Assembly (NCBI GenBank): GCA_910575705.1 | Contig: CAJTFG010000001.1 | Coordinates: 496,001-560,000, forward strand | Reading direction: 5' to 3' | DNA length: 64,000 nt | From: Erysipelotrichales bacterium | GTDB taxonomy: Bacteria; Bacillota_I; Bacilli_A; Erysipelotrichales; Erysipelotrichaceae | In this document: one piece after another, positions 2,794 through 55,110 of the stretch | Layout of the letters: every line of letters begins with the position of its first letter | How positions within the stretch are numbered: the stretch's first letter is position 1 | Notes under the pieces: model-generated | Database searches by the model: none | Told to the model about the DNA's origin: nothing | What the model saw: the letters and a program-made list of their open reading frames with translations, nothing else | Position numbers and translations under genes: made by a program

Positions 2794-2814
2794 CGGATAC
2801 CTCCTATAAAATAA

Positions 2815-2897
2815 AAGCCATCACACATGATAGAGCTCCCTTAAGGCTGCTTCGTTCCCGACCTGACCTGATTCGTAAGATACCATTGTGATAGCTT
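2815..2897 (-). ncRNA. ffs: Small signal recognition particle RNA (4.5S type)
   Basis: The minus strand carries the SRP core GGTCAGGTCGGGAAC followed by GAAGCAGCC, the conserved asymmetric and symmetric loops of domain IV with the GGAA-type tetraloop region. Flanking arms pair (GCTATCACA with TGTGATGGC), closing an about 80-nt hairpin. A T-rich tail follows. The RNA scaffolds Ffh in co-translational membrane targeting. The position between serS and tadA/dnaX is common in Firmicutes. Confidence 0.95.
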
Positions 2898-3009
2898 TTT
2901 TATTATAACATAATCCGTAAAATAAGCAATAGAAGTTTCGCATTCATAACCAAATACAAAATAATTGCATCAACATGATATCAAATGATTCTTATTCTAA
3001 AGGAAAAGA

Positions 3010-4334: not shown

Positions 4335-4556
4335 AATAAAAAAGAGGTATCGCCATAAAGGGACGATACCTCGTGTTGCCACCCTTCTTAATTCAGTATA
4401 CACCGAATCATCTCTAGGTTATAACGGAACCGCCGTAACAGAATACTCAATTCATCTGTTCACTCCAAGGTTGATTTCATAAATCCTTATTAATAACTTC
4501 CACCATCCGTTATCTCTCTGTTCAATAATGAATTTATTACTTATCCTCATCAACAT
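4335..4556 (-). promoter_or_regulatory. T-box riboswitch controlling serS
   Basis: The leader contains the T-box core (AGGGTGGCAACACG on the minus strand, near 4371-4386) followed by a terminator hairpin with arms GAGGTATCGTCCC and GGCGATACCTC and a T run (about 4338-4373). Upstream are the AGAGAG motif of stem I and a typical specifier context, in which minus-strand TCA (4472-4474) precedes ACCTTGGAGT. TCA is a serine codon, which matches the serS gene downstream. Uncharged tRNA-Ser would pair with the specifier and stabilise the antiterminator. Confidence 0.93.
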
Positions 4557-4570
4557 TTTATTTATTTATA

Positions 4571-10636: not shown

Positions 10637-10931
10637 GGCACGATTTCTATTCACCATCAAATCATTCCCATTGTCGGATCCAGTAATTCGGGGACAAAGG
10701 ATTCCTTCTTTCAATGGGAGGAAGTTTCCAATGCAGAATATGAAGGAATTTACCTCTCATCTCCCGGAATCCGTCATGATAGCGTTATATATCAAACAGC
10801 AGGTGCAATCTATCAAGCAGGACACATAGACTGTGGATATACTGCTTTACATGGTACAAAATATCAGCGTCCGGCTCTGATGAAATTAAGAAACTATGAT
10901 AAGAATTATAGTTCTATATAACATACAGAGG
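10637..10931 (+). other. Silent variable cassette A
   Basis: An open frame of 94 residues runs from GTISIHHQIIPIVGSS to QRPALMKLRNYDKNYSSI and then TAA, with no start codon or ribosome site. The conserved 5' edge GCACGATTTCT is at 10638 and CAGCGTCCGGCTCTG at 10865-10879. The hairpin at 10892-10913 has arms AACTATGAT and ATTATAGTT (one G-U pair) and an AAGA loop, followed 10 nt later by TACAGAGG. The peptide resembles cassettes M and I (V-G-S...G-T-K-D-S-F-F, E-Y-E-G). It lies inside the classical dnaN-yaaA junction. It is probably a donor of a C-terminal domain rather than a gene. Confidence 0.85.
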
Positions 10932-22023: not shown

Positions 22024-22323
22024 AGCACGATTTCTACTTTTCGTAGCATTATTTACAAGCCACTGGAGCATTGCTATCAAGGACGATGCAACAATATTAA
22101 TGATCTATACTTCCAACATGCAGAAACAAAGTATACCTTTGGTGCTGTTTGGGAGTCATCATCATATTCATCAGGCTCCTTTGTTTGGGATATTACGGGT
22201 ACTCCGGGGCATGATTATACGAATCTAAGTTCAGATAGAGGTTTCCATCAGCGTCCGGCTCTATGGAGGATAGATAATTATGGTGGGTATCATGATTCTA
22301 TGCATGCTATAGAGGTTGTATAA
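22024..22323 (+). other. Silent variable cassette B
   Basis: The open frame of 99 codons has no start. It reads STISTFRSIIYKPLEHCYQG at first, includes VWESSSYSSGSFVWDITG, reaches QRPALWRIDNYGGYHDSM and ends at TAA 22321. The 5' edge GCACGATTTCT starts at 22025. The hairpin 22276-22297 has arms AATTATGGT and ATCATGATT (two G-U pairs) and a GGGT loop. The outer arms are CTCTAT and ATAGAG instead of CTCTGT and ACAGAG, a compensatory change. A purine-rich leader (about 21960-22023, ...AATGAGGAGCGGAGCTCC) precedes it. Confidence 0.85.
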
Positions 22324-22360: not shown

Positions 22361-22652
22361 CGCACGATTTCTGTCTCATTCGGTAGTATCATAACCGAAG
22401 AATTGTGTGCTGATTTATATGGAAAACTGGAGACCTTACATACAACGGGAGCCATCCGTATTTGGTCATCAACCATTCCACGTAATAGCGGATTGATTCA
22501 TGTTCTTGGCTATGGAACTAACGGTGGTGTAGACATCATGCTGGCTAAGGGAGAACCAGATAAATATTCACATACCATGGGACATCAGCGTCCGGCTTTG
22601 TACAGATGAAATAGCTATGGTAAGTATCATAGTCGCGTATAACATACAGAGG
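22361..22652 (+). other. Silent variable cassette C
   Basis: The frame begins RTISVSFGSIITEELCADLY, has the lectin-like W-S-S-T block (AIRIWSSTIPRNSG) and ends GHQRPALYR with TGA at 22607. The QRPAL codons are at 22586-22600 and the hairpin at 22613-22634 (arms AGCTATGGT and ATCATAGTC, loop AAGT). TACAGAGG is at 22645-22652. It starts only 37 bases after the stop of cassette B. Its closest relative here is the decayed cassette J, on the other strand 13 kb away. Confidence 0.85.
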
Positions 22653-22804: not shown

Positions 22805-23149
22805 AGCACGATTTCTGTCGGAAGCAGCATACTTCCCCGCCCCACTACCAAAGCCTGCATATCCGAAGGCAATTATGACCCTTATGCATGTAATGGCAGC
22901 TATCTGTCTCAAGTCTTTCATTTTAATACAACAAATTTCATATACCAGGAAAGTTGGATGGCTACTCCACACCAAGGAACTGTGTTTGAACCAGAAGGCA
23001 GTGGGGCATGGGTAGTCGGCAACACCGGTTACTTTCTTACATATTCCGGAAACAGCTTAACACATGGCCGCATATTTCGTTCCCAGCGTCCGGCTCTGAT
23101 GATCTAAGATAACTATGATAGGTATCATAGTTCAAACAACATACAGAGG
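22805..23149 (+). other. Silent variable cassette D
   Basis: This 100-codon frame begins STISVGSSILPRP, contains ACNGSYL, ESWMATPHQG and GSGAWVVGNTGYFLTYSGNS, and ends SQRPALMI with TAA at 23105. The hairpin 23111-23132 is a perfect 9-bp stem (AACTATGAT and ATCATAGTT, loop AGGT), and TACAGAGG is at 23142-23149. It is clearly homologous at the protein level to cassette L (opposite strand, 21 kb away) in spite of strong DNA divergence. Confidence 0.86.
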
Positions 23150-23237: not shown

Positions 23238-23514
23238 GGCACGATTTCTGCTTTTCAAGGAAGTTTTCCGCAAATGCCCGATGACACTGTCATATCATCA
23301 CTTTCGTGGAGTCTTATCGAGTTTACTCCTGGGTTTGATTGGAGCTTTTGGTCATCACCAAGTCCTCTCGATATAAAGACAGTACTCGGTTTACGAGATT
23401 CCGGAGGTTGGTGTCCAGCTGTTTATGAACTATTGACATTACATTATCAGCGTCCGGCTCTGTACAGATTGGATAACTATGGTAAGTATCATAGTTGTAT
23501 ATAAGATACAGAGG
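23238..23514 (+). other. Silent variable cassette E
   Basis: The frame starts GTISAFQGSFPQMP, includes FDWSFWSSPSPLD and ends HYQRPALYRLDNYGKYHSCI with TAA at 23502. The QRPAL codons are at 23448-23462. The hairpin at 23475-23496 has arms AACTATGGT and ATCATAGTT and loop AAGT; TACAGAGG is at 23507-23514. The leader 23150-23237 (GTAAAAGAAAAATGAGGCTAGGGGTTCC) has in-frame stops, so the reading frame cannot start much upstream of the TIS codons. Confidence 0.87.
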
Positions 23515-34013: not shown

Positions 34014-34047
34014 AAAACTCTATGTGGAATTGCATAGAGTTTTTTTG
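34014..34047 (+). terminator. Terminator of gpmI
   Basis: AAAACTCTATG, loop TGGAATTG, CATAGAGTTTTTTT. Cassette array F-J, on the opposite strand, begins about 40 bases further. Confidence 0.9.
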
Positions 34048-34086: not shown

Positions 34087-34350
34087 TTATCGGCTAAATA
34101 CATACAGAGTCGGACGCTGATATCGGCAGTTTTCTCTTGATTCCCCTGCTATGGTAGTGCCGCCAGTATATGCAATCATATAGACAGCATATTCCGTATT
34201 TGGTCTTCGTGGATATGGTGTTGCCTGAAATATCCAGTCTGTTATGTTAGGGATTGGAAGTGTACTTCTCCATTGTAGTAACAAGTCTTTTGAACCGTAA
34301 TCTGCTCCGTCAGTATTCACCAAAATACGATGATGAACAGAAATCGTGCA
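34087..34350 (-). other. Silent variable cassette F (3' structure missing)
   Basis: The 87-codon frame reads TISVHHRILVNTDGADYGSK early, has ITDWIFQATPYPRR, and ends YQRPTLYVFSR with TAA at 34087. CAGCGTCCGACTCTG is at 34105-34119. Unlike the others it lacks the hairpin and outer arm: the sequence after TCTGTATGTATT is unrelated and abuts the gpmI terminator. This is probably the truncated end of array F-J. Confidence 0.8.
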
Positions 34351-34382
34351 AAAATAAAAGAGAGAGAATGTTCTTCCTTACC

Positions 34383-34684
34383 CTTTGTATCCTATATACA
34401 ATCATAATCCTTATCATGATTCCCTAATAGTTTTCTTACAAAGCCGGACGCTGATAAACAACATCAGGAGCACTGTCACCGTTACTATAAACACCGTCTG
34501 CCTGTCCTAATGCTCCAATTACACTGGCAGATAACAGGGGGTTTACATTCGGACGGTAACTGGATACCCAATAACTTTCATATGGATGGGAAGTTAACGG
34601 TTCCCAACGAAGAGACAAGATCTGGCTTCCGTTAAAACCTGCCCCGGAAATTACAACTGTTCGATAATGCACAGAAATCGTGCC
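34383..34684 (-). other. Silent variable cassette G
   Basis: The 82-codon frame reads GTISVHYRTVVISGAGFNG at first, includes ESYWVSSYRPNVN and ends VVYQRPAL with TAA. The frame stays open into the leader (M-R-L-G-C-S-F-L-W before GTIS). The hairpin is at 34400-34421 (arms AATCATGAT and ATTATGATT, loop AAGG). The outer arms are CTTTGTA and TACAAAG instead of CTCTGTA and TACAGAG, a clean compensatory pair. Confidence 0.86.
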
Positions 34685-34783
34685 CCATAGAAACGAACAT
34701 CCTAACCTCATTATCATTTTTAGCCTACCTATAGGAAAAGAACAACGGATAATGTACAAAAAAATTAGTAAATACTGGAAATC

Positions 34784-35066
34784 CCTCTGTATCTTATATA
34801 CAACTATGATATATATCATAGTTTCCCAACATTCACAGAGCCGGACGCTGATATGGATAAAGAATATTTTGTGTAGCAGATTGATCGATATTTCCATATT
34901 CTGCAAGTACTACCGTTTCCTGTTTACTTCGATAATCCAGCGAAGACAGCCATGTCCATTCATGTTCTAAGGAGCTGACTTTCTTCCAATTCATTGGTGC
35001 AAAATAGGGGCCTTCCCATTTATCATATATAGTTGCAAGTTTTTGATATTTTGCAGAAATCGTGCC
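34784..35066 (-). other. Silent variable cassette H
   Basis: The 77-codon frame reads GTISAKYQKLATIYDKWEG, includes HEWTWLSSLDYRS and ends YQRPAL with TGA. The hairpin at 34802-34823 is a perfect palindrome (AACTATGAT and ATCATAGTT, loop ATAT). The outer arm CCTCTGTA (plus strand) is at 34784. A long leader (35067-35189) separates it from cassette I. Confidence 0.86.
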
Positions 35067-35189
35067 CCTCTTACAACGGAACCCCGCTCCTCATTATCTT
35101 CTTCTTACCTTAGTGAACGAATCCCAGATCAATCATTTTAAAAAAGGTTTCCCTTATACATAAAATCTCATCCTCTTTTTTCTACCATT
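35067..35189 (-). repeat. Conserved cassette leader (example: upstream of H)
   Basis: Reading the minus strand, this spacer shows modules recurring before other cassettes. One is a GAxATTTTATGyATAAGxGxAACC-like block (plus coordinates 35146-35170; relatives at 44896-44921, 45292-45316 and 51856-51880). A GGGATTCGTT block follows, then AATGAGGAGCGGGGTTCCGTTGTAAG immediately before GGGGCACG. It is purine-rich and has stops in the cassette frame, so it is probably not coding. Lengths vary from about 70 to 190 bases by gain or loss of modules. Confidence 0.65.
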
Positions 35190-35463
35190 CCTCTGTATTC
35201 CGTATACGATCATAATGCTTATCATGATTATCTTACATCTACAGAGCCGGACGCTGATCATATGGATCCGATGGCGAGCATCCGTCAATTATGCCCCCTT
35301 TATATATGGCAGTCGTGTGGTCTTTAAATTGAGGGTACACATTGCTGTCCGGACGTAAGGAAGATAAAATAGACGTAGTTTGTGCAAAAAAAGCGCTGTC
35401 CTTACTTCCTTGCAAGGCGACGTTAATGGATACCGGTATGTGGTGATAAACAGAAATCGTGCT
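35190..35463 (-). other. Silent variable cassette I
   Basis: The 74-codon frame reads STISVYHHIPVSINVALQG, has GSKDSAFFAQ and TTAIYKGGIIDGCS, and ends DQRPAL with TAG. It resembles cassette A with an internal deletion. The hairpin at 35208-35229 has arms AATCATGAT and ATTATGATC and loop AAGC. The outer arm CCTCTGTA is at 35190-35197. Confidence 0.85.
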
Positions 35464-35497
35464 GAAAAGAAGAAAGGCATCCTTATCCTATGGATAA

Positions 35498-35740
35498 AAT
35501 CATGATATCTGCCATGACTATCTTTCCTTTAGAGAGCCGACGGTGCGTGCACTGTCATTTGGTTCTTCTATTGCCCTCATAACATCCTGAACGCCAATAT
35601 TTCCGTAAGCAAAGGCAGTCGTATCTCAAGTACCCTTTTATAAAATACGGTTGATGACCATATACGAGTATTACCGGCTGTATGTAATGTTGTTAATTGT
35701 CCTAAAAGGAGATATGTTTTGAATGAGACAGAAATCGCAT
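35498..35740 (-). pseudogene. Decayed variable cassette J
   Basis: The 5' edge is altered (GCGATTTCTGTCTCATTC) and the first half reads AISVSFKTYLLLGQLTTLHTA, then NTRIWSSTVF, closely matching cassette C (LETLHTTGAIRIWSSTIP). A frameshift follows. The alternate frame continues as AYGNIGVQDVMRAIEEPN, matching C's GYGTNGGVDIMLAKGEPD. QRPAL is lost (GTCGGCTCTCTAAAG). A hairpin is still recognisable at 35498-35519 with mismatches. Confidence 0.75.
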
Positions 35741-44131: not shown

Positions 44132-44164
44132 TAAAAAAAGACCATCTGATAATGGTCTTTTTCA
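44132..44164 (+). terminator. Terminator of the GGGtGRT operon
   Basis: AAAAAGACCAT, loop CTGATA, ATGGTCTTTTT. Cassette K begins four bases later on the other strand. Confidence 0.9.
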
Positions 44165-44167
44165 TTT

Positions 44168-44474
44168 CCTCTGTATGTTATATAGAACTGTGATGCTTAT
44201 CACAGTTATCTTAGATTATCAGAGCCGGACGCTGCGTATTTTGTTGTGTACTCGGGCCATCTTCCCAAGCTTCACCTATCGCATTGCCTCCCCGATGAAA
44301 TTTTGTTGTAGCAGGGGTGCTTCCTTGGTAAAAATGTGGCTTCATAAAATATGAAATACCGATCAAAGAATAATGAAAAGATGTATCACTGGAAGCACCT
44401 TTACATTCTCCAATGGAACCGGTACATGAGATTCCTGCCTTAGTGAGAATATGATGGCTGTAAGAAATCGTGCG
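44168..44474 (-). other. Silent variable cassette K
   Basis: The 87-codon frame reads RTISYSHHILTKAGISCTGS and ends NTQRPALII with TAA; upstream the frame is open through V-R-L-G-C-S-L-L-W. The hairpin at 44186-44207 has arms AACTGTGAT and ATCACAGTT (loop AAGC): relative to the common AACTATGAT/ATCATAGTT, an A-T pair is replaced by G-C, a true covariation. The outer arm CCTCTGTA is at 44168-44175. Confidence 0.87.
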
Positions 44475-44543: not shown

Positions 44544-44886
44544 CCTTTGTATCTTATATCGAATCATAATACTTATTATGATCTCTTAACATATACAGAG
44601 CCGGACGCTGATGTCGTGTTAAATCTGGTCGGTTTACACTGTTGCTGGGATAAGAAAGAATATAACCTGAACTACCGATATTCCATGCACCACTTCCGAC
44701 TTTTGGCACTGATGCAGGGTATATTGGAGTAGCTGTCCATATCTCTTCATATGGAACATTAGTCGTGATAATCCAAGAAAAAACAGGAAGAAGTGAACCG
44801 TTGCATTCAAGCGGTCCTGTTATACCAGACGATGAGCACTTATTATTTATAATGGGGATCTTGTGATTATAAACAGAAATCGTGCT
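44544..44886 (-). other. Silent variable cassette L
   Basis: This is the longest frame (110 codons): STISVYNHKIPIINNKC, then LECNGSLLPVFSW, EEIWTATPIYPA, GSGAWNIGSSGYILSYPSNS, and HQRPALYMLRDHNKYYDSI with TAA. It is homologous to cassette D. The hairpin at 44562-44583 has arms GATCATAAT and ATTATGATT (loop AAGT). The outer arms CTCTGTA and TACAAAG have one mismatch. Confidence 0.87.
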
Positions 44887-44967: not shown

Positions 44968-45253
44968 CCTCTGTATCTTATGTAGAATTATAATCCCTAT
45001 TATAATTACCTCATATATACAGAACCGGACGCTGCCATTTTTCTGTTCCGTATGCCATTCTGGCATCATAGGAGCCAATATAGGAAACAAAATCAACGGC
45101 TTGTCTTACTGCTATACTACGTGATGGAGATGCAGAAAAAGTGCCTTCGTATTCATCCGTAGTAAATTTATGAAATGCAAATGCGTGATCTACGGTACCG
45201 TTTAAAAGTTGCCCTACCACCGGGATCAGCTCGTTATGAACAGAAATCGTGCT
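44968..45253 (-). other. Silent variable cassette M
   Basis: The 80-codon frame reads STISVHNELIPVVGQLLNG, includes TDEYEGTFSASPSRS, and ends WQRPVLYI with TGA. It resembles cassette A. The hairpin at 44986-45007 is a perfect stem with changed bases on both sides (AATTATAAT and ATTATAATT, loop AGGG). The leader beyond 45253 contains the TTTTATGTGTAAGAGAAACC module (45292-45316). Confidence 0.87.
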
Positions 45254-51494: not shown

Positions 51495-51521
51495 AAAAGA
51501 GATCCTGGCGGATCTTTTTTT
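51495..51521 (+). terminator. Rho-independent terminator
   Basis: AAAAGAGATCC, loop TGGC, GGATCTTTTTTT follow the small paralog gene. Confidence 0.88.
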
Positions 51522-51526
51522 GTATG

Positions 51527-51819
51527 CCTCTGTATGTCGTATGGAACCATAACATCTGTTATCGTTTATCTATCTTATGCAGTTACAGAGCCGGACGCTG
51601 CGAGCCCATAGTACAAGAACTGACATGTGGTTCCCCTGTCGCCCGTAATGCATCGCATCCTCCTTCATCGGTAACGGATATCGGCCATTGCGGGTATAAT
51701 ACAGATGTAGAAGTCCAAAACCTTATATCCGTTGTAAAACGTAAAGCTGAAAGAGAACCATATGGAACATCGATCTGTTCAGGTTGTAAAATAAAGCCGT
51801 TATGCACAGAAATCGTGCC
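51527..51819 (-). other. Silent variable cassette N
   Basis: The 78-codon frame reads GTISVHNGFILQPEQIDVPYG, has DIRFWTSTSVLYPQW and ends GSQRPAL with TAA. The hairpin at 51545-51566 has arms AACGATAAC and GTTATGGTT with one mismatch (loop AGAT). Its spacing from QRPAL is 19 rather than 12 nt. The 152-base leader (51820-51971) is the longest and contains several repeated GGGATTC-CGTT-type modules. Confidence 0.85.
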
Positions 51820-51971: not shown

Positions 51972-52272
51972 CCTCTGTATCTTATATAGAACTACAATAC
52001 TTATTATAGCTTTCCAATCGATACAGAGCCGGACGCTGTGTTGCCATGGATTGCGCATATTGTAACCAGGATTCTCCTTGAAAACCAATAATGTGAGAAA
52101 CGGTCGGTTTTCCACGGAACTCATCCGCACTGCTTAAGCGGAAATGGCTTGTTACGGTTAACGTGGGATCACTAGGCATCAAGAAAGAAAAAGTCCTATC
52201 TTGTGAGTACTTATCTGTGTTATTGTCACCGGAAGAAAAAACGCAAATACTATGAAACACAGAAATCGTGCT
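51972..52272 (-). other. Silent variable cassette O
   Basis: The 96-codon frame reads STISVFHSICVFSSGDNN, contains TSHFRLSSADEFRG and ends ATQRPALYRLESYNKYCSSI with TAA. The hairpin at 51990-52011 has arms AGCTATAAT and ATTGTAGTT (G-U pairs, loop AAGT). The outer arm CCTCTGTA is at 51972. Its 5' edge abuts the truncated AlbA_2 gene. Confidence 0.86.
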
Positions 52273-54802: not shown

Positions 54803-55110
54803 CCTTTGTATATTGTATAGAACCATAATCCTCATTATGATTTTCTAACTGTATCCAAAGCCGGACGCTGAAATGTGAGTACAGCGTCAGCTGAAAAACG
54901 GTTGGGAGCATGTCCCCATTTTGTTCCTCCACATCGCTTCCGCGAAGAAAAAGAAGAAGATGAGGAGAGGATATAAAAGTGAGTATGTGCAGATTTGTCC
55001 ATATTGGAATCATCATAGGCTAGAGAAGGGTCTTGAGTGCCATAGCATGTCGTACCTTCACAATCGGGGGACATATCCACCTTAATATAATGAACATGAG
55101 AAATCGTGCT
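54803..55110 (-). other. Silent variable cassette P
   Basis: The 91-codon frame reads STISHVHYIKVDMSPDCEGT, contains HTHFYILSSSSSFSSRKR, and ends FQRPALDTVRKS with TAA. The hairpin at 54821-54842 has arms AATCATAAT and ATTATGGTT (loop GAGG). The outer arms are CTTTG and CAAAG, again a compensated change from CTCTG and CAGAG. It is the outermost copy in the window. Confidence 0.86.

Follow-up and report, generated by a model that had tools for sequence, protein, structure and literature searches.

The short, similar sequences that stand head to tail in several arrays of this locus raise the question of what they are and what they are for. The window analysed here, a 64-kb stretch (bases 496,001–560,000 of contig C1) of a 1.845-Mb genome in 11 contigs, contains 15 near-complete cassettes and a decayed one, arranged in head-to-tail, same-strand arrays (Table 1). 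Each cassette is bounded by GCACGATTTCT(G) at its 5' end and CAGCGTCCGGCT(CTG) at its 3' end, and most are followed by a stem-loop ending in TACAGAGG or a close variant. The TACAGAGG sequence occurs 11 times against 0.76 expected, a count reached in none of 100 shuffles, and a model of the 3' element (R1) recovers 14 copies in the window at E <= 2.1e-6. Start-to-start spacing within arrays is 334–444 nt in the window and 305–541 nt genome-wide, with a single exceptional gap of 872 nt. The decayed cassette J shows that array slots can die. No Rfam family matched the window units or the region beside the reverse transcriptase (RT) gene described below; the T-box leader and small SRP RNA found in the window, at 4356–4562 and 2807–2902 (-), are ordinary.

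Table 1. Silent cassettes and their 3' elements in the window (positions are those of the window; E values are from model R1)
Feature	Position	Strand	Remark
Silent cassette A (TISIHHQ...YQRPA)	10640-10876	+	open frame, conserved ends
3' stem-loop element of A	10875-10931	+	E 1.7e-11
Silent cassette B	22027-22260	+	open frame, conserved ends
3' element of B	22259-22315	+	E 4.8e-9
Silent cassette C	22364-22597	+	open frame, conserved ends
3' element of C	22596-22652	+	E 2.3e-8
Silent cassette D	22808-23095	+	class-A 5' flank, common to expression site
3' element of D	23094-23149	+	E 2.7e-10
Silent cassette E	23241-23459	+	open frame, conserved ends
3' element of E	23458-23514	+	E 2.2e-12; surrounding 163 nt identical to C1:286463
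Silent cassette F	34108-34347	-	3' element lost; last before terminator-like hairpin
Silent cassette G	34442-34681	-	open frame, conserved ends
3' element of G	34382-34443	-	E 2.1e-9
Silent cassette H	34839-35063	-	open frame, conserved ends
3' element of H	34784-34840	-	E 2.7e-11
Silent cassette I	35245-35460	-	open frame, conserved ends
3' element of I	35190-35246	-	E 1.7e-10
Cassette J, decayed, frame-shifted	~35527-35740	-	from translation
Weak 3' element of J	35481-35536	-	E 0.12
Silent cassette, K-M array, lowest coordinates	44223-44471	-	open frame, conserved ends
3' element, K-M lowest	44168-44224	-	E 3.4e-11
Silent cassette, K-M array, middle	44599-44883	-	open frame, conserved ends
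3' element, K-M middle	44544-44600	-	E 4.1e-10
Silent cassette, K-M array, highest coordinates	45023-45250	-	open frame, conserved ends
3' element, K-M highest	44968-45024	-	E 1.9e-9
Silent cassette, O-N array, lower	51589-51816	-	open frame, conserved ends
3' element, O-N lower	51527-51590	-	E 2.1e-6
Silent cassette, O-N array, upper	52027-52269	-	open frame, conserved ends
3' element, O-N upper	51972-52028	-	E 1.1e-10
Silent cassette, single	54859-55107	-	open frame, conserved ends
3' element, single	54803-54860	-	E 1.1e-9

An earlier note on this DNA described the arrays as head-to-tail and same-strand, which is true of the window and extends to the whole genome, where 36 of 36 multi-unit clusters are single-strand. 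Its placing of the arrays just beyond terminators agrees with terminator-like hairpins at three array edges (34014–34043, 44135–44162 and 51500–51515), but such hairpins are no commoner in the scan than in shuffles (14 against 13.4). The strand rule proposed there, plus to the left of 24 kb and minus to the right of 34 kb, holds within the window. Along contig C1, 78 of 108 cassettes are oriented toward the presumed origin, whose position was deduced from ORF sizes (p = 3e-6 by cassette); counted by independent clusters the figures are 29 versus 18 (p = 0.14), which amounts to a tendency only.

The cassettes belong to a much larger set. Searched at no more than one mismatch, the 3' core has 136 copies in the genome, and a reversed control has none. 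The counts of 133 used below refer to cassettes with both ends in the stretches of genome fetched, rather than to the whole genome; one more cassette with both ends, the 134th (L193, on C1 at about 723.7 kb), lies outside them. A cassette is an open frame without a start codon, TIS...QRPAL, of 58–96 aa, and every cassette in the window begins with TIS and ends with QRPA(L) or a one-letter variant (frame CAG CGT CCG GCT). The frame set by the ends is open in 130 of 133 cassettes. In contrast, the other forward frames are open in 8 and 1 and the reverse frames in 8, 1 and 3, with stops in 125–132 of the 133. The cassettes encode 130 distinct proteins that fall into 59 families at 40% identity. 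Changes between close pairs concentrate at the third codon position (376 versus 187 and 151 at the other two), and pN/pS is 0.31 across 26 close cassette pairs. Most of the 133 have no in-frame upstream start codon, and no silent cassette is embedded in a long gene that shares its frame; the largest open frame enclosing any of them measures 254 aa and overlaps a neighbouring gene in another frame. Among 60 genomes, cassettes are present in this one alone. Viral contigs contain no relative of the expressed domain described below; the 61 exact matches of the 15-base 3' core in them, all single, were taken as chance.

A single cassette is found in frame within a long gene, at C3:176531-197065 on the minus strand, which has 6,844 codons. 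In its product the cassette occupies approximately residues 308–383 and is followed by MBG_2 and bacterial Ig-like domains; by eye, the N-terminus carries a signal-peptide-like segment and the C-terminus an Asn/Gly-rich stretch, a hydrophobic segment and a charged tail. Together with its edges, 247 nt in all, the expressed cassette is 100% identical to the silent copy C1:632808-633032; the identity breaks abruptly on both sides, and the flanks are unrelated. With one in-frame copy that matches a silent cassette exactly, the arrays very probably serve one expression site as a library of silent donors. At the level of sequence, then, the library is silent, the expression site is single and the copy is exact; the direction of copying, from library to expression site, and a resulting change of ligand or antigen at the surface protein are what we infer from this arrangement. 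An ORF immediately upstream of the gene for this protein (L210:5681-6757, -) resembles by eye an ECF-type sigma factor fused to a membrane segment and may control the surface protein.

The variable segment itself has no match in Pfam or NCBIfam. It may be lectin-like, given the resemblance of its W.SS....RPAL pattern to C-type-lectin-like domains; predicted structures are of low confidence (pLDDT 47.6 and 37). The full expressed domain occurs in this genome alone among 195 genomes of the family. A weak relative in another genome (G109; 39% over 105 residues) shares the pattern ...TWI.Y.TI...RPALY, and no conserved cassette ends were seen by eye in the stretch of it that was viewed. The contig ends, considered as possible locations of a target gene, carry no cassette ends.

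Traces of copying were sought as HSPs of at least 60 nt and at least 95% identity, leaving out units less than 900 nt apart, and 148 such blocks were found between non-neighbouring units. Whole-cassette copies within the genome account for nine blocks, the expressed one included. Eight of these start 2–19 nt before the cassette, and their ends fall between 1 nt before and 5 nt past the last base of CAGCGTCCGGCT; the remaining one extends into the 3' element. The 3' flanks contain 61 of the 148 blocks, that is, flanks recombine between arrays. Together with the cassette-edged copies, this suggests that cassettes can move between slots whose own flanks stay in place. Among the partial copies, the 5' edge is the anchor in three and the 3' edge in one, and one is internal; since they are not only 3'-anchored, ordinary recombination fits them too. 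Expression-site sequence precedes the cassette in 20 of 133 silent units, in a few of them over tens of nucleotides; C1:518808, C1:347104, C1:395745 and C2:118665 have expression-like upstream flanks, as though the expressed gene had been copied back into them.

Outside the coding segment, the silent units have features of RNA genes. Base pairing between the outer arms of the 3' element is seen in 128 of 133 units and is exact in 116 of them (125 distinct rows), and the arm types compensate each other (CTCTG/CAGAG, CTTTG/CAAAG, CTCTA/TAGAG and CTCAA/TTGAG). In an alignment of 39 of 51 diverse sequences, from which the longest and oddest were omitted so that the percentages lean to typical members, 95.3% of cells pair against 82.0% in shuffles. 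The covariation score is 0.476 against 0.205, the inner 9-bp stem covaries, and all five pairing and covariation measures lie above all shuffles (0/500). The covariation is of the RNA type. G-U cells outnumber A-C cells 121 to 28, an excess which implies that one strand folds, namely the coding strand, as RNA or as single-stranded DNA. On the 5' side, the hexamer AGGTAG is present within 200 nt upstream of 69 of 133 silent units. An extended -10 box (TGnTAWnnT), by sequence match rather than a mapped start, lies 4–16 nt before it in 46 of the 69, compared with 1 of 71 AGGTAG sites in twenty other genome stretches. Folded as RNA, the whole silent unit is no more stable than shuffles (z = 1.06). 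By their look, the silent units are quite probably RNA genes, and they are presumably transcribed. In many silent units, short repeated modules such as GGRTTCGTTTAAAATGGTGAGGA and GGGTTCCATTATAAGG stand after AGGTAG and before the cassette.

The genome encodes one RVT_1 protein, a 412-aa RT (C2:179012-180247) with the motifs YMDD and QGNLVSQ, the latter of which we take to be the SQ motif. It is of the type found in diversity-generating retroelements (DGRs), with up to 45–46% identity to RTs of canonical DGRs. An Avd-like gene lies just upstream, scoring 46.4 bits against PF22296 (cut-off 40) and 42.1 bits against the NCBIfam Avd model, under its cut-off of 80. The gap between the two genes is approximately 12 nt, whereas the relatives have 334–422 nt there. 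No template repeat was found between or beside Avd and RT, and the surrounding 19 kb contain no cassette. A close RT is present in one of 195 family genomes, and four others have distant RTs of no more than 35% identity. Since both the cassettes (one of 60 genomes) and the close RT are confined to a single genome, a correlation between them across genomes is impossible.

The nearest RT relatives in named genomes (about 45%) belong to metagenome-assembled genomes labelled Tenericutes, Clostridium and similar. They are canonical DGRs with the template within the Avd-RT gap, and their target genes differ from it mostly at template adenines. Template repeats were sought in 13 of 80 RT loci. Directly after the template, the relatives carry an outer stem of 8 bp, an inner stem of 9 bp with an AAGN loop, and GG following the outer arm; the parts come in the same order in the silent units. 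Under a strict rule (outer arm, stem of at least 7 bp with an ARGN loop, arm, G), this layout was found in five of five close DGR relatives and in 63 of 133 silent units, but in none of eight more distant DGRs. Its random occurrence is 2 in 12,000 positions of this genome and 55 in 19,500 in DGR loci, some of the latter perhaps near true sites. A covariance model built from the silent 3' elements missed the template-repeat ends of the relatives; against 43 loci of RT relatives it gave four matches (best E 1.2), none at a located template end, which leaves homology unproven. The variable part of the relatives' targets also ends in ...RPAL, and the W..S..RPAL positions of the cassette protein align with their target domain, but the profile probability is only 4% and 2%. 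Searches of this genome with a relative's full target gene and for the FGE-sulfatase family returned nothing. A hairpin following the DGR target repeat is reported in one study (PMC3240598); here, no hairpin of at least 5 bp with a 4-nt loop was found within 200 nt of the expressed cassette, nor, in three close relatives, any of at least 6 bp at four target sites. Three canonical DGRs in uncultured Bacillota-type metagenome-assembled genomes (L104, L098 and L099) have a fused variable domain, joined in L104 to an AAA-type ATPase (Pfam); these fusions are possible conflict or defence sensors.

Adenine mutagenesis is the hallmark of DGRs. Between the expressed cassette and its donor, 0 of 66 adenines differ, and change among silent pairs is strand-symmetric (AG 192, CT 238, AC 72, GT 74). 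Adenine mutagenesis is rejected on 29 close pairs and on the donor versus the expressed copy. Unchanged adenines and symmetric silent pairs imply either that the RT copies faithfully in this system or that the copying is done by RecA-type conversion.

The best explanation overall, to which we give a rough probability of 0.6, is switching in which silent RNA units are copied into the surface-protein gene. A unit would be a small RNA gene made up of the extended -10 box, the AGGTAG box, the start-less segment, the CAGCGTCCGGCT core and the stem-loop. Once the silent RNAs are made, RT-Avd would begin at the 3' element and read on across the G+C-rich core into the cassette. The cDNA would then replace the cassette of the expression site, one-way and between the short conserved ends, as DGR cDNA does. 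The tip of the surface protein would change, the silent segments being interchangeable variants of one exposed segment. Copying would thus be the work of a stand-alone DGR-type RT with Avd, acting without the usual adenine mutagenesis. One study of DGRs describes a spacer 3' of the template that recruits RT-Avd and primes the cDNA, and reports that retrohoming in E. coli does not depend on RecA (PMC12875486). The chances are about even that RT-Avd does the copying, from RNA templates and faithfully. That one RT-Avd pair can read any of more than 130 dispersed template RNAs and write the segment unmutated into a single gene is a tentative proposal, a little short of even odds.

A RecA-type gene conversion, as in vlsE, tprK and pilE, with RT-Avd as an unrelated remnant, is a serious alternative with a substantial minority chance of being correct. 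It would account for the exact copy free of adenine change, for the partial mosaic copies and for the share of HSPs in the 3' flanks, and known silent-cassette systems act in this way (PMC10063172, PMC11499132). Under such conversion the 3' stem-loop could be a DNA hairpin that initiates recombination, or could mark where a transcript ends. Gene conversion leaves unexplained, however, why silent units are preceded by a promoter-like box and AGGTAG, why the covariation is strand-specific and why the layout is shared with DGR template ends. In addition, class-B donors have only about a dozen nucleotides in common with the expression site at the 5' end.

A conventional mutagenic DGR with many remote variable regions would fit the presence of RT and Avd and the canonical behaviour of the relatives, but it is highly improbable given that adenines are not preferentially changed among cassettes or from donor to expressed copy, that the RT has no template repeat beside it and that the cassettes are without start codons. 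The earlier note had also suggested integron-like growth by site-specific insertion at the 3' structure. What stands of this is that the cassettes are discrete and that copies respect their ends; the integron likeness itself falls. The head-to-tail, same-strand arrays and the conserved 3' structure recall integrons, yet start codons are absent and copies break at both cassette edges. The genome has three tyrosine recombinases, two best matched as XerC/XerD and the third a general recombinase, which score 130, 130 and 50 bits against an integron integrase cut-off of 265 and were rejected as such, and attC-type R boxes occur at 0 of 133 3' ends (shuffled mean 1.4). Integron-like growth can therefore be set aside as extremely improbable. 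Selfish mobile repeats that keep an open frame by chance would explain many dispersed copies but hardly the low pN/pS, the almost universally open frame or the exact copy in a surface-protein gene, and deserve equally little credence.

The arrangement that emerges looks like a machine for swapping the tip of a surface protein. As in vlsE/vls of Borrelia, tprK of Treponema pallidum and pilE/pilS, one surface gene is expressed, partial copies are silent, the conserved ends are short and copying would be one-way. In contrast to these systems, the donors here are dispersed and more numerous, at least 133, there is little identity between most donor families, and the silent units resemble RNA genes, in that they have a promoter-like box and their 3' stem-loop covaries. 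Likeness to DGRs lies in RT and Avd, in a G+C-rich repeat end followed by a structured, possibly comparable 3' element and in a variable segment ending ...RPAL; the differences are the lack of adenine mutagenesis and of a template repeat at the RT, the more than 130 dispersed template-like units and the ordinary purifying selection on cassettes. Integrons also have head-to-tail cassettes with a 3' structure, whereas the cassettes here are donors rather than expressed, with no integrase, attC or start codons. Shufflons and invertible C-terminal segments likewise offer alternative segments for one gene, although by inversion, whereas here the segment is internal, near the N-terminus, and would be copied from dispersed loci. 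The open-licence PMC literature searched contained no comparable system. Silent libraries with one expression site are already known; the new part is the combination of RNA-like donors with a lone DGR RT.

This low-GC bacterium would possess a silent donor library larger than that of tprK, for which 53 donor cassettes are reported (PMC10063172), and the switching of a surface protein would be linked to a retroelement enzyme. Should the copying be done by RT-Avd, this would be a DGR working without mutagenesis, separating retrohoming from error-prone synthesis. If the proposed switching is true, reverse transcription would switch the antigen or ligand, drawing on stored variants instead of random mutation.
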